From: Acrasis kona
Taxonomy: Eukaryota; Heterolobosea; Eutetramitea; Acrasida; Acrasidae
NCBI GenBank assembly: GCA_026419775.2
Contig: JAOPGA020000904.1
Span: 1 to 64,000 of the forward strand
Length of the DNA stretch: 64,000 nt
Direction: 5' to 3'
The first letter of the stretch is position 1, and each line of letters starts with the position of its first letter. Shown piece by piece: positions 56,559-64,000 of this stretch. Below the pieces are notes generated by a model. That model was not told the origin of the DNA, did not search any database, and worked only from the letters and a program-made list of their open reading frames with translations. Made by a program: the position numbers and the translations under genes.

Positions 56559-57872
56559 TTATTTTATGGCTGGAGTAGACTCTGGGAGAGATGTTCCAAC
56601 TAGATTATCTTGAGTGGCAAGAAGATCATCTCGCGATACAATTACATAGTCAATATTTGGTATGTTTGCACAACAAAATACTTTTAAAATAAAACAATTA
56701 TCTATGTTCGCTAATCCTGTTAATGAAACATTGTTGCAGTATTCCAAACCAACTAGCATCACTCTGCCCAGATGCTTGAAACTATCATCAGTTACTCCGT
56801 TAGCGTGCAATAAGTACAACGATTTTATCCCTCTTAAATAATGCAGTCCCACATTGGTGATTAAACGACCATCCATGCGTAAATTTAAAATGCCTGCTAA
56901 ATAAGACAAACCAACATCTGTTATTTTATGTGATTCTTCCAAATCCAAAATCTCTATGCCTCTTAGGTAAGATAGTCCCTCATCGGTAATGTTTTTTCCG
57001 TGGGCCTCGAGAGAACGAATGCCCTTTAGATAAGAGTAGCCTACGTCTGTTATATTTTTGCATTGATTTATACCGAGCGTGTCGATGCCTTCGAGATAAG
57101 ATAAACCAACATCAGTTATGTTACTCCAGTGAGCGAACAAGACACTGATGCCCTTTAAATAAGAGAATCCTTTGTCAGTAACCAAAACATTAAACGTAAT
57201 GTCCAATGTGTGGATGCCTGTTAGATAAGACAAACCAACATCTGTTAACTGGATGCAGTTACTAATGTCTAATTTCCAAATACCACTCAAATTTGATATT
57301 CCAGCATCCGTGATCACTTCCGCGCTGGAAAAGTCTACAGTTAGTACACGGATGCCATTCAAGTAGGAAAGTCCATGGTCATTCATACGAGATCCGATCA
57401 TCGTCAATTTTTGTATTCCTTTCAAGTGTTTAAATCCCTCTGCACTTATATTTGTGCAGTTCAATAGTTGTAGATGCTTGAGGCCCCTAAGATGAAAGAG
57501 TCCTTTATTGGTGATATTGTTGCAATCAAACATGTTTAAATTGCATATGCCTCTTAATTGAGACCCATTTACATCACCTTCTCTAGTAGGAAAAATTCTT
57601 CCAAGATCGTCATCTGTGGTCTCGGGGCTAACTGTATAATTTTTATTAGAATTAATTATAGTGTTGCTCCTATAAGATTCAACTGCCTTGCATGTTGTAG
57701 AAAAATTCAACCATGCATTTGTTTTAAGAAATAAACTTATCAAAATAAGTGCATCCTCTCCAACATCTAGAAGGCATTTCACTACGATGTTTTCTTTACA
57801 TGTTCGTTTACGTTTCAGGTCACGGTCGTCAACCTCTTGAGGACGTCTGGATTCTGATTCAAAACAGGTCAT
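56559..57872 (-). CDS. Leucine-rich repeat protein (AMN1-like repeats)
   Basis: Single-exon protein of 437 residues. A basic N-terminus and a helical region (ALILISLFLKTNAWLNFSTTCKAV) that resembles an F-box precede about twelve LRRs of 21-24 residues from about residue 105. The repeat core is ITDVGLSYLxGIxxLDIxxC, the cysteine-containing type seen in F-box/LRR proteins. Phrases ITDVGLSYL, LSYLRGI and FSYLKGI recur with high similarity, suggesting recent expansion. The last 45 residues are non-repetitive. A role as substrate receptor of an SCF ligase is plausible but inferred. Confidence 0.82.
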   Translation of the reverse strand: MTCFESESRRPQEVDDRDLKRKRTCKENIVVKCLLDVGEDALILISLFLKTNAWLNFSTTCKAVESYRSNTIINSNKNYTVSPETTDDDLGRIFPTREGDVNGSQLRGICNLNMFDCNNITNKGLFHLRGLKHLQLLNCTNISAEGFKHLKGIQKLTMIGSRMNDHGLSYLNGIRVLTVDFSSAEVITDAGISNLSGIWKLDISNCIQLTDVGLSYLTGIHTLDITFNVLVTDKGFSYLKGISVLFAHWSNITDVGLSYLEGIDTLGINQCKNITDVGYSYLKGIRSLEAHGKNITDEGLSYLRGIEILDLEESHKITDVGLSYLAGILNLRMDGRLITNVGLHYLRGIKSLYLLHANGVTDDSFKHLGRVMLVGLEYCNNVSLTGLANIDNCFILKVFCCANIPNIDYVIVSRDDLLATQDNLVGTSLPESTPAIK

Positions 57873-58623: not shown

Positions 58624-61600
58624 TTAATCATCAAAATCAGAATCGTCGCTCGAATCATCTTCTTCATTATGAATGGCTCCTCTTCTTCCACCTATCGCAG
58701 CAAACAAGTCATTCTCCAGACTTGGTTGAGAAGTCTTCTTTTCGCTCTCTATGCTCGAAGTCGAATCAGTCTTCTTCAGCACTGTTCCCCTTCTAATCTG
58801 TAGCAACAAGTCGTCTCTACCAGGCGCTACATTTGGTGGTGATGCTATAGGAGGAGGTGGCGGCATGTTTTGTGGTGGAGGTGGTGGCATGTTTTGTAAT
58901 GGAGGAGGAGGTGGCGGTATATTTTGTGGTGGAGGAGGTGGCGGTGGTATATTTTGTGGTGCTGGAGGAACAGCAGAGAATGAAGGAGGAGGTGGTAAGT
59001 TGTTCTGAACTGGCGGCGGAGGCACCACAGCTTTAAGTGATGGAGGTGGTGGCGGGGGTGTTGAAGTAACTATGACTGGCGTTGGAGCAGCAGACGTCGA
59101 TACAACAGCTGCATCAACTGGTGGTGCAGCTACAGAAGTAGAAGGTATTTGTGGAAGCATCAAGCTATGTTTACGAGTACTGGTGATGATTGGAGCATCG
59201 AATTCAACAGCCGTAGGTAGAGATACCACTGGAGGAGGTACCACTTGTTCGTGACTGTTAGTATTAACGTACGTGCTTCTTCTAACATCTCTTTCTTTTG
59301 TGGTGGTCACCAGTGCATCTTCGAACAAAATCTTTTTTTGTTTCAAATTTTCCTCTCTCTTATCAATGTGTATGTTCATGTACGCTAATGTAGAGGAAGT
59401 GACTGGTGGTTGTAATAACATCTTTTTCAATTCCATCACATCCAAATCGGATGCAGATGCGATCTGACCATTTGCGTCCAAATTAGCCAAATTTGGATTC
59501 TTGGGCAACAAGTATTTACATAACTGCAAGCACTTGTTCTTGGTGGTATATCCCTTGGTCGCATTCACAATCATGTCGAATGCCTTTTCTGCGAAATGCA
59601 TCGCAAAGTAATCTGCAATCTTCACATTGCCATAACATGCTCTAGAAATGGTATCTAATAGCATGTCAGTGTGATCGGGTTGACTTTGGATGGCATCTAA
59701 AAATAGATCACATGCCACATTCGCCACATTACTGATTTGTTCCAAACAATTAGCATCAAAAGTGCACTTGGATATGCATTGTAATAAACTCCACGAGGCA
59801 ATCGAATCGCGCTCGTTGTAACATTTTTGTAATAATTCAGGAATGTGAGATGCGGAATTAGACACCATCTGAGTGTTATGATAACCAGCACCTCCCAAAC
59901 AAGTCAACAAACTAGCACAAACGTCTCGTTGATCGGATAAATTTTGTGGTTGAGCGGACAATAATGATCCAATAAAAGAATCCGAAACGGGATAACTCTC
60001 CCCTCTATTGGCGTACACGCTCACATAGACGCCTTGTACACAAAATGGTAATTTGTAATCAATTTGATTCAAATTCAAATTAGATTGTAAAGAATCTTTT
60101 AGTAATTGTTTCATGTCATCGTTCCAAATGAACTCTGGATACTGATGAGCTCTGGAGTAGATTGGAATGGCGTCGATGGGATCTTGCTTCATTACCATTG
60201 CAATCACGTGGGGAACGAATTTACCGACCACATCCAAATGTAACGATCCCATCACAAATGCACATTTCATCCTGAGCAAAGTGGACGCGGACGTGCAGAA
60301 TAGGTGCATTAGTATGGGTAACAATCCGTTGGTTTCGCAAATTTCGATCGGTGATTGTAATGTCATGTTGGATGAGATGGCGTCTTGGTTGACCAACATG
60401 TGATACAACAACGTGACATTGGCTTCCACCATCCACTCGTCATCCACCAGATATCGATTGATGAGCGTCAGAATCATGTTCATGATTCCAGATTTGTGTA
60501 GATGCGATTTGACCGAATTGGAATTATTCTCATTTTCGCTCACCAGAGAATAGAACAGAACGCTCAGGGCATCTCTGGCATCAGTGGATTCGATTTGTTC
60601 GGCGTGAATGATGCACACTTCCAATGTGTCCAAATGATTTTTGAGTTGGCTGCGGGAAATTGCAACATCTCTACAAATCAGTTCCAAGCTCTTAACGGCA
60701 ACGCATACGTGTTGAGTGTCCCTCGTAATCAACGAACAAATTTCGTCAATGAAAATCTTGAGGTCAACCTGATCGGGCAACAATTCCCCGCGACCCATCA
60801 AATTATATTGATTACAAAAAGACACCACAACTCATGGGTTCGTGATCGTGAGAGTGATATTTGAAATCGTGAATCAATTGAACATCAAATCCATTTCCCA
60901 TCATCATGTTCAATCTCAACGAATGTAAAAATTCCAACAATTCATTTCTGGAATCTTGATTCCACATTACAGTAATTGTGGATTCGTCTTGATTGAACAA
61001 TTCGTAAAATTCAGAATCGCCACGATTCATTAGACAAGCACACAAGTGATCCGGCAATAGCGTTCGTAGGGAACGATCGACTATCAAGTTGACGGAGACG
61101 GATGAATCGTCATTTGGTAATCTCCATCCGGCCATTCTCCTGGTTGACCGAGATCCCTTTAATGCAATTTCAGAATCAGATGCATTTAGTGCATGTATCA
61201 AAGTACATACCAACGCACCGCTGGTCAACGCTCGTTCTTGTAAAGAAGGATCTTTGAATAGACTACTCAAGGTATCCAAGGAAATACTTATGCATTCCTT
61301 GGTCGTTTCGTTGTAGGGCAACATGCATAGAGATACAACGGATTTCATGAGCGTTAAGCTCTGTTGAAGTTGACCGCTGCTTGATTCGTGATAATTTTGA
61401 CTCACGAACAAAATCAATTTCACACATTGAGAAGCTACGTGAGCTAATTGATCCCTTGGATCGCTCAAATGAGCCAATGTGTAATCATCACCAGGCGTCA
61501 TGAATGGATTGGCACCAGATGATGACATTTGATTTCCGTCGTAATCTACATTGTTGTCTTCTTCTGGCATGTTGACTGCCATGGTGTCCTCTCTTTCATG

Positions 61601-64000
61601 ATGTAGAGATTTACGCGCCAAATCTTTTTGTAAGATCGCAATTTTACGATTTTCGAAATAATTTTGTAATTTATCATTCGGAGTGATTCCATCGGGAGAT
61701 GACTCTGGTGGATTGGATGATAATTTGAAACTAATTTTATCAAAGATTGAAATGATGGGATTGATCACATTTCCTTTGATCAACCCGACGGAATTCTCTT
61801 TTGATAATTTCATCAATTGATGGATCAATTCCAAAATTTCATGTTGCAAATGCAATTGGTCCGAATCAACCAGACAATTACAACATTTCAAAATCACCGC
61901 AAAATGAGACGAGAAGGATTTGAATGTGGTGTGATCCGTGTGGTTCATCACCAACAATAAACATCTCAAGCATTTACTGGCATGATCCCAATTTTGTTTG
62001 GTGATGGATTGATCTAATTGCAAAATCAACTCATCTTGTAAAATGGTTGCATCTTGAATTTTGAAATCGGATGGCCATGTGGATGTGTCCATCAGATTGT
62101 TCAAATAATAATGTGCACAAACTGGTTCGTCCATCAATCGTTCGTAAATCACGGGTTGCCTTAGCGGTTCGTATTGATAAATTGCATTTTGATCTTGAGA
62201 GATGACATTTATGAAATTCGATAAATGACTCGAAATGATGTTCTTCAAATCACATCTCATTTTTGCGTTCCATATAATGTCGGGAGTACAAATGTCTTGT
62301 GCTTGATAAGCGGTGCAGAAATCTTGTACGCTCCATGTGTCCAATCTGTAAATTAGCTGATCGGGTAAAATGTCGGACAATATACTTGTCTCGCTGCTCT
62401 GTGCTCGATGTGCGTATTGTAAAATTTGAACCATGTCTTCGATGCTCGATCCATCGTATAAAAATAGCAAATAGAACAATCCAGTTCGGTACAGTTCGGG
62501 AATCAAATCATCATTGTACATGATGAGTGATTTCAAAAGTTGAGTGATGAAAATAAACATATTTCCGTGATCTCCGAAAAGTAACAATTGAATCAAATGT
62601 GGAATAATGTTGGGCGTGCTCAAAATGTTTTTTGCGACTGGCATGGGAACGATGATGCGATCTTTGTGATCCATGTCGGGATGATGAGTCAAAACTCCTA
62701 ATAGGATTCTGACGCTGCTTTGAATTACGGTGACGTGAATGTTGGGTTGATCGGAAATGCGATTGGGGTTGATCGAATTGTGTTCTTGGTAATTGAGAGC
62801 CGACATGATTAGTGGTGTGGTTGAGTCGATGGTTCCGTTCAAGTCAACTTTGTCCGGAACATCCGGAAGTTGACCATGGATCATTGAAATGTAACCCAAA
62901 ATAATTTGTATTCCTCCGAAGCGCACAAAACTTTCGATATTCTCCGAGTTGACCAGTAATTGACGAACGAAATTTAACACGTCCACCAAAACCAACATTC
63001 GTTGGTATTGTGACTGGACCTGATGACTTCGGTCCTTTAAAAGTTCGCAAATGTGGTGCATGTATGGATAAGGTCCAATCTCTTGTTTGTGGAACATGTA
63101 AACGCATGTGGCAACTCTCAAACATAAACACACCATGGCGTCGCTGGGACTCAACATGATTTGATCGTGTAATTGTTCTATAAAGTCGACGGGATTGTCG
63201 ACTACTGCATCGTCACCCCATCCCATGTCGAAACGAGGTGATAGGAAGAAACGTAAATAGTATTTACCGACTTGAGGTTCGTTCGAAAGACATTCGTAAC
63301 TAATGTTGAATTCTTCGTGGTTCCAAACTACGTTTTCTGGTAATTTGTCATTTTGTGAAATTTCTGTTTGTAACCTGGTGATCAGTTCTTTTTGCGTGCG
63401 TTCGTCCCATATTAAATTTGCACTTGATGTTTTTGACTCTGGACCCATTACGCTAGAGAAGAGCATTTTCCAATTCTGGGATAATTTGTTATAGGGTTGG
63501 ACTGGAATTTGAACTTCGCTGGAACCTTGAATCTTTTTTATCAATCCATGTTGAGTGTTTTTCGTGTCGTTGAATAATGTTAATTTTTTGATAAGGGTGG
63601 GAGAGAAGATTCTTCGAAGAAGGAACATGGCTTCTTTGTAGCCTTCTGATAGGTAACCAACATTTTCGGCATTGACGGCGGCTCTAATCGGATCTTGTTC
63701 CCCGGAACTGGCCAATAAAATTTGTTGTAAAAGTTGAACTGTGTGAACTGCTCTATATTTTACATTTCGGTGCGCCTTCTCGTCTTCTCCATATTGTAAA
63801 ACTACTCTTAAAAGTAAGGCTGCATTGTAACGAAGTGAGAGACTGGGCGAGTCGAAACTCAAAGTGAATAAATCATCCGCATGAGATCTACAATATTGGA
63901 CCAACCGAACGAACACATGACGATCGGTACTATAGGCACCCGAAAACATCAGGTTCTCAAGTAAACTTAATACGGAATGATATGCTAATGTGAAACCGTT
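58624..64000 (-). CDS. DNAJC13: RME-8/DNAJC13-like protein with C-terminal VCA-like tail, partial
   Basis: The reading frame enters from beyond 64000, so the N-terminus and the expected J domain are outside. About 1,790 residues are seen. IWN-type repeats mark RME-8: VVWNHEEFNISYECL followed by VGKYYLRFFL, then DIIWNAKMRCDLK, VMWNQDSRNELLEFL and FIWNDDMKQLLKDSL, each followed by armadillo-like helices. The frame shifts by one base at the T5 run (60816-60820); either side matches the repeat pattern. After the last helices comes a Pro-rich stretch (about 58825-59070), then WH2 motif RDDLLLQIRRGTVLKK, a central-like LFAAIGGRRGAIH and an acidic EEDDSSDDSDFDD end. RME-8 works with Hsc70 on endosomes. 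The tail resembles the Arp2/3-activating VCA of WASP proteins. Confidence 0.85.
58825..59070 (-). repeat. Polyproline-encoding repeats in RME-8 gene
   Basis: Imperfect repeats of about 24-30 bp encode NIPPPPPPPQ and NMPPPPPQ units, giving at least five proline clusters. Such tracts recruit profilin-actin in actin nucleators. Confidence 0.8.

Follow-up and report, generated by a model that had tools for sequence, protein, structure and literature searches.

An RME-8 homologue without a J domain carries a predicted WASP-type proline-WH2-C-A tail in Acrasis kona

The stretch of DNA that we analysed, referred to here as the window, comprises positions 1-64000 of contig C440 (97,161 bases) in the 37.35 Mb assembly of Acrasis kona. 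An RME-8 gene is located on the minus strand and is laid out in two frames (Table 1). The second of these is free of stops from its armadillo block to its tail, and closes with DSDFDD. The database protein for this gene, P0002 (1590 aa), uses the 37-nt intron and lacks the VCA-type tail because it ends at the frame break. Next to the RME-8 gene, on the same strand (window 56559-57872), is a gene for leucine-rich repeats whose units (GLSYLxGI) are nearly identical.

Table 1. Features of the RME-8 locus, given as window positions unless stated otherwise.
Feature	Position	Strand	Remarks
RME-8 gene, 5' end	ATG at contig position 65621, outside the window	minus	
Upstream RME-8 part, most of exon 2	60815..64000, continues beyond the window	minus	RME-8_N and IWN/armadillo; no J domain, no GYF_2
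Intron, 37 nt, GT-AG	near the 5' end of the RME-8 gene	minus	
Frame break within RME-8 homology	60812..60828	minus	the upstream frame ends in a stop that overlaps the beginning of the downstream one
734-codon frame (P0001)	58624..60828	minus	last armadillo/IWN block, linker, proline-rich stretch, WH2-C-A tail, stop
C-terminal RME-8 armadillo/IWN block, residues 23-452 of the frame	59473..60762	minus	AlphaFold2 and alignment with P0007
Conserved linker, residues 489-507	59308..59364	minus	alignment; counterpart in P0003 is NKKEENKRQIEVLF
Proline-rich stretch, residues about 589-667	about 58828..59064	minus	
WH2 motif GRDDLLLQIRRGTVLKK, residues 668-689	58762..58827	minus	Pfam PF02205 and N-WASP match in PDB
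C-like amphipathic segment LFAAIGGRRGAIH, residues 708-720	58669..58707	minus	aligned to the C region of N-WASP/WAVE1
Acidic end NEEDDSSDDSDFDD, residues 721-734	58627..58668	minus	Phe and no Trp
Stop codon of the tail frame	58624..58626	minus	

The initial annotation had described this region (58624-60830) as an Hsc70 co-chaperone, RME-8, fused in one uninterrupted frame to a WASP-type actin-nucleation tail. The frame, the order of its parts and their coordinates were as claimed, with 734 codons open from 60828 to 58624 on the minus strand. The uninterrupted frame held for the stretch from the armadillo block to the tail. It did not hold for the upstream half of RME-8: this half lies across the break at 60812-60828 and is in another frame, so that no single frame of the assembly covers the whole protein.

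The body of the predicted protein has clear similarity to RME-8. P0002 matched the Pfam family RME-8_N (PF19432) at 1e-39 (136.9 bits, cut-off 25.4). Residues 24-401 of P0001 aligned with residues 1706-2114 of the insect RME-8 P0007 (92 of 363 aligned residues identical), with a score that was reached by none of 100 shuffles, and collinearity of the IWN/armadillo body with canonical RME-8 extended to approximately residue 2114 in the insect protein. Alignment of the N-terminus against the PI(3)P-binding PH-like region of RME-8 was unreliable. An AlphaFold2 model based on an eight-row alignment was almost wholly helical between residues 23 and 452, with pLDDT mostly 52-89. Past residue 500 the model was disordered apart from two late helices, one spanning 671-680 and the other 704-721, at the expected places of WH2 and C. 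Mean pLDDT was only 58.9 and the tail scored below 50; helix 704-721 is of low confidence.

The same architecture was found beyond the window, in line with the fusion that had been proposed. When the upstream frame was used as query in a protein search, three proteins were obtained: that of the window itself, P0003 (40% identity, 2126 aa) and P0004. Querying with P0003 gave four: P0003 itself, P0002, P0006 and P0005, which is 1523 aa long and 55% identical to P0003. P0003 and P0005 are JGI metagenome proteins, and each has the armadillo-linker-proline-WH2-C-A order in a single frame. Alignment indicated that the linker at the junction is conserved between these two proteins and the window protein. 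The A. kona genome itself contains a second such gene, on C937 (L012:1625-8215, minus strand), with Pfam matches to RME-8_N (3.3e-41) and to WH2 (2.9e-4, 20.8 bits). This gene has several frame breaks in the assembly, and its armadillo part and tail are in neighbouring frames with breaks between them, making the fusion less direct. The four fused proteins, all without a J domain, grouped together with 99/98 support in a 14-row tree that came with a warning on long branches and letter make-up.

The J domain expected of an RME-8 co-chaperone was absent from all four of these proteins. Pfam gave no match to the J domain (PF00226) or to GYF_2 (PF14237) in the window protein, C937, P0003 or P0005, while PF00226 was listed for all 12 other RME-8 proteins retrieved (P0004, P0006 and P0007-P0016). 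The BLASTP alignment of P0002 with the J-bearing P0006 spanned residues 73 to 1198 and stopped just short of the J domain, and at the J position of the multiple alignment the four fused proteins had either a gap or armadillo sequence. Each contains one HPD tripeptide, located elsewhere and in an armadillo context. The YLT motif was likewise not found in the last 300 residues of the four, and was present in 7 of the 11 other ends listed.

A genome search using P0006 gave nine matches: two on C440, five on C937, one on C435 and a weak one on C546. We rejected C435 as a J-bearing RME-8, as its match covered the J domain only and it reads as an ordinary Hsp40. C546 was also rejected: the gene there (L028:779-5544, plus strand) reads as a third, very divergent IWN-like relative that has no J domain, no HPD and no WH2 and matches no Pfam family. 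Among the best candidates across the genome, which were scored exon by exon, there was no RME-8 with a J domain, and a much divided gene could be missed by these searches. The description of the window protein as an Hsc70 co-chaperone is thus unsupported, with the J domain absent from all four fused proteins and no RME-8 bearing one among those candidates. Judged by sequence, the protein is a homologue of DNAJC13, yet it is not a DNAJC13 in the strict sense because no J domain was found in it.

We then compared the tail of the window protein with known WH2 and VCA sequences. The 130 residues that precede WH2-C-A are 38% proline. Pfam WH2 matched the tail with E = 3.4e-4 and 20.6 bits, which is below the curated cut-off of 23.1. 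A search of PDB (177,635 sequences) with the last 65 residues gave six matches at E <= 1, all of them N-WASP or WAVE1 (entries named WASP family member 1), with N-WASP as the best (E = 5.2e-6). The last 158 residues, searched against the same set, also gave six matches at this threshold, again all N-WASP or WAVE1. Several of these alignments continue through C and A up to the end of the protein. We accept the WH2 motif on its E-value and its N-WASP match, albeit with a bit score under the curated cut-off. The score of the whole tail against N-WASP or WAVE1 was reached by none of 2000 shuffles, and against the tail of the genome's own WASH by four of 2000. For C-A alone the counts out of 2000 were 4, 0 and 6 against N-WASP, WAVE1 and own WASH, respectively. 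A loose WH2 expression, composed after the site was known and run on stop-free pieces of 60 or more residues, matched once in the window's 32,271 stop-free residues, at the tail site with its acidic end at the stop. When the whole genome was searched with the WH2 profile at E <= 0.001, two other places matched, and neither the window tail nor the C937 tail was among the matches. A gene on C921 (L001) has a WH2 match that exceeds the cut-off; on visual reading it contains an SH3-like piece and closes with an acidic stretch that includes Trp (DDDWNND), and it perhaps encodes a WAVE/SCAR-type protein.

WH2 bit scores for the four tails were 20.6, 20.8, 16.6 and 12.7, all under the Pfam cut-off, and proline content before the tail was 33-47% over 130 residues in all four proteins. 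In PDB, the C937 tail had four matches at E <= 1, all WAVE1 or N-WASP. At E <= 10, the P0005 tail had four, all N-WASP or chimeras bearing the N-WASP tail, and the P0003 tail had three, two N-WASP and one MTSS1 WH2 peptide. When the four tails were compared pairwise, each of the six pairs scored above all 1000 shuffles. Results for C-A alone were weaker in the relatives: the scores against N-WASP, WAVE1 and own WASH were reached by 1, 15 and 72 of 2000 shuffles for C937, by 121, 21 and 71 for P0003, and by 0, 491 and 1 for P0005. The score of the whole P0005 tail against WAVE1 was reached by 187 of 2000. The RR of the C segment is absent from C937. The terminal aromatic is Phe in the window protein and in P0003 (DGDFE), Tyr in P0005 (DDSDY) and Trp in C937 (EDEWDD), so that three of the four ends have no Trp. 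Together, the profile and sequence matches, the two single-frame metagenome proteins and the C937 paralogue support the proposed fusion of an RME-8 scaffold with a WASP-type tail in Pro-V-C-A order, as predicted from sequence.

Several other explanations of these data must be weighed. The proline-rich/WH2 part could be a separate gene that merely adjoins RME-8, and third-position GC does fall from 0.35-0.60 in codons 1-500 to 0.27-0.33 beyond codon 500. However, this shift coincides with the proline-rich stretch, and there is no stop between the two parts. The same junction is crossed in a single frame by P0003 and P0005, with the linker conserved across it, which led us to reject a separate gene as highly improbable. 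We consider it scarcely credible that a disordered proline-rich end has acquired a WH2-like stretch by accident. The WH2 score under the Pfam cut-off and the low-complexity surroundings would be consistent with such a chance resemblance, but recurrence in relatives contradicts it, and it was discarded on the strength of the shuffles (0 of 2000 against N-WASP and WAVE1, 0 of 1000 for each of the six tail pairs), the PDB matches, nearly all of them WASP family, and the single match of the WH2 expression in the window. The frame break raises a different concern. If it is real, the gene may have decayed, or a tail-less protein of 1590 residues may be made, leaving the tail frame as a remnant. The break is present in the assembly, P0002 ends there and C937 is broken too. 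Against this, the 734 codons that follow are open, with RME-8, linker and tail matches still in frame, and P0003 and P0005 are open across the equivalent place. Indel errors are hinted at by an enolase copy of the same assembly (C504, L030:556-1917) whose frame is likewise interrupted close to the 3' end; however, C932 carries another enolase copy, so the interrupted one could itself be decayed. We judge a real break to be quite improbable, and assembly indels a likelier cause than gene decay.

More weight must be given to the possibility that the tail binds G-actin and profilin without activating Arp2/3, and either tethers endosomes to actin or passes monomers to WASH or formins. The Phe, Phe and Tyr in place of Trp at three of the four ends are consistent with this, as are the weak C-A scores of P0003, and of P0005 against WAVE1, the lack of RR in C937 and the presence in the genome of a WASH with its own Pro-WH2-like-C-A end. 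However, the Pro-V-C-A order is kept in all four proteins, with a C-like segment and an acidic end at the very C-terminus, and aromatic ends other than Trp are known among WASP-family proteins (PMC3298513). That paper reports Phe endings for invertebrate WHAMM and some WASP proteins, treats the terminal Trp as not strictly required in the family, and calls it an open question if Trp specifically, or just any aromatic residue, is required in the acidic region. The doubt that the initial annotation expressed over the terminal Phe was a real one, yet Phe and Tyr recur in the relatives, and C937 has Trp. Overall, we regard binding without Arp2/3 activation as unlikely.

The reading we prefer, and consider probable, is that the window gene encodes a J-less scaffold derived from RME-8 whose Pro-WH2-C-A tail starts branched actin on endosomes. 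In animals, RME-8 reaches endosomes by means of a PH-like N-terminus that binds PI(3)P, a binding opposed by the J domain and by the disordered end with its YLT motif (PMC12404652); FAM21 and the WASH complex connect RME-8 to retromer (PMC4110399). By analogy, the RME-8 body of the fused protein would sit on endosome membranes, where the proline-rich part may bring profilin-actin, WH2 may bring G-actin and C-A may bring the Arp2/3 complex. The protein would then initiate branched actin at the endosome itself, alongside a WASH complex to which animal RME-8 does no more than bind. We infer its endosomal location, its binding of actin and Arp2/3 and its regulation. The absence of the J domain and YLT motif might in addition strengthen membrane binding. 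The genome contains a WASH gene on C605 (L013:1501-2950), with a WAHD match of 2.2e-21 and a proline-rich end closing GSWDSDD, which by eye is proline-rich, WH2-like and acidic. It also has a weaker WAHD match on C530, and genes for ARPC2 and strumpellin, the latter named in PMC8296547. Because WASH, strumpellin and ARPC2 are all present, the fused protein would be expected to act beside WASH. A further evolutionary proposal could equally be right or wrong: that loss of the J domain and gain of a VCA able to activate Arp2/3 preceded the duplication, giving a new, self-sufficient class of endosomal nucleator in a genome without a J-bearing RME-8.

If the tail works as proposed, RME-8 in this organism would itself nucleate actin instead of visiting the WASH complex as a co-chaperone. 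This would suggest that the scaffold and its link to actin, rather than its link to chaperones, is the part of RME-8 able to stand alone. It would also be a covalent counterpart to the animal RME-8-WASH contact, with two endosome jobs joined in one molecule. With tails that are otherwise similar but end in Phe, Tyr or Trp, the family lends itself to a natural test of the Trp-or-any-aromatic question (PMC3298513). In a literature search we came across neither an RME-8 described with WH2 or VCA nor an Arp2/3 activator on an RME-8 scaffold, and the 2012 survey of the WASP family (PMC3298513) has none of the words "RME", "DnaJ" and "armadillo" in its main text.

The fused protein shares with RME-8/DNAJC13/GRV2 the RME-8_N match and a collinear IWN/armadillo body. 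Unlike these proteins, the window protein has no J domain, GYF_2 or YLT motif, and a Pro-WH2-C-A tail replaces their short disordered end. A fusion of Sec10 with a formin has reportedly been described, to judge by a title cited in PMC12050087, and is similar in that a trafficking protein is covalently linked to an actin nucleator; however, it joins an exocyst subunit to a formin and not RME-8 to a VCA. The WASH complex (WASH1, strumpellin and FAM21) carries out VCA-driven Arp2/3 activation at endosomes, as the fused protein is predicted to do, whereas WASH is a separate gene here and no WAHD (PF11945) was among the Pfam matches of the window RME-8, C937, P0003 or P0005. N-WASP and WAVE/SCAR have the same C-terminal order of proline-rich, WH2, C and acidic segments and gave the best PDB matches. 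They differ in having WH1/GBD or a WAVE homology domain in place of the RME-8 body, and the fused proteins differ from them in the Phe or Tyr ends of three of the four. The fused protein would thus work like a VCA-type nucleation-promoting factor, and as a putative VCA protein its N-terminal architecture is new.
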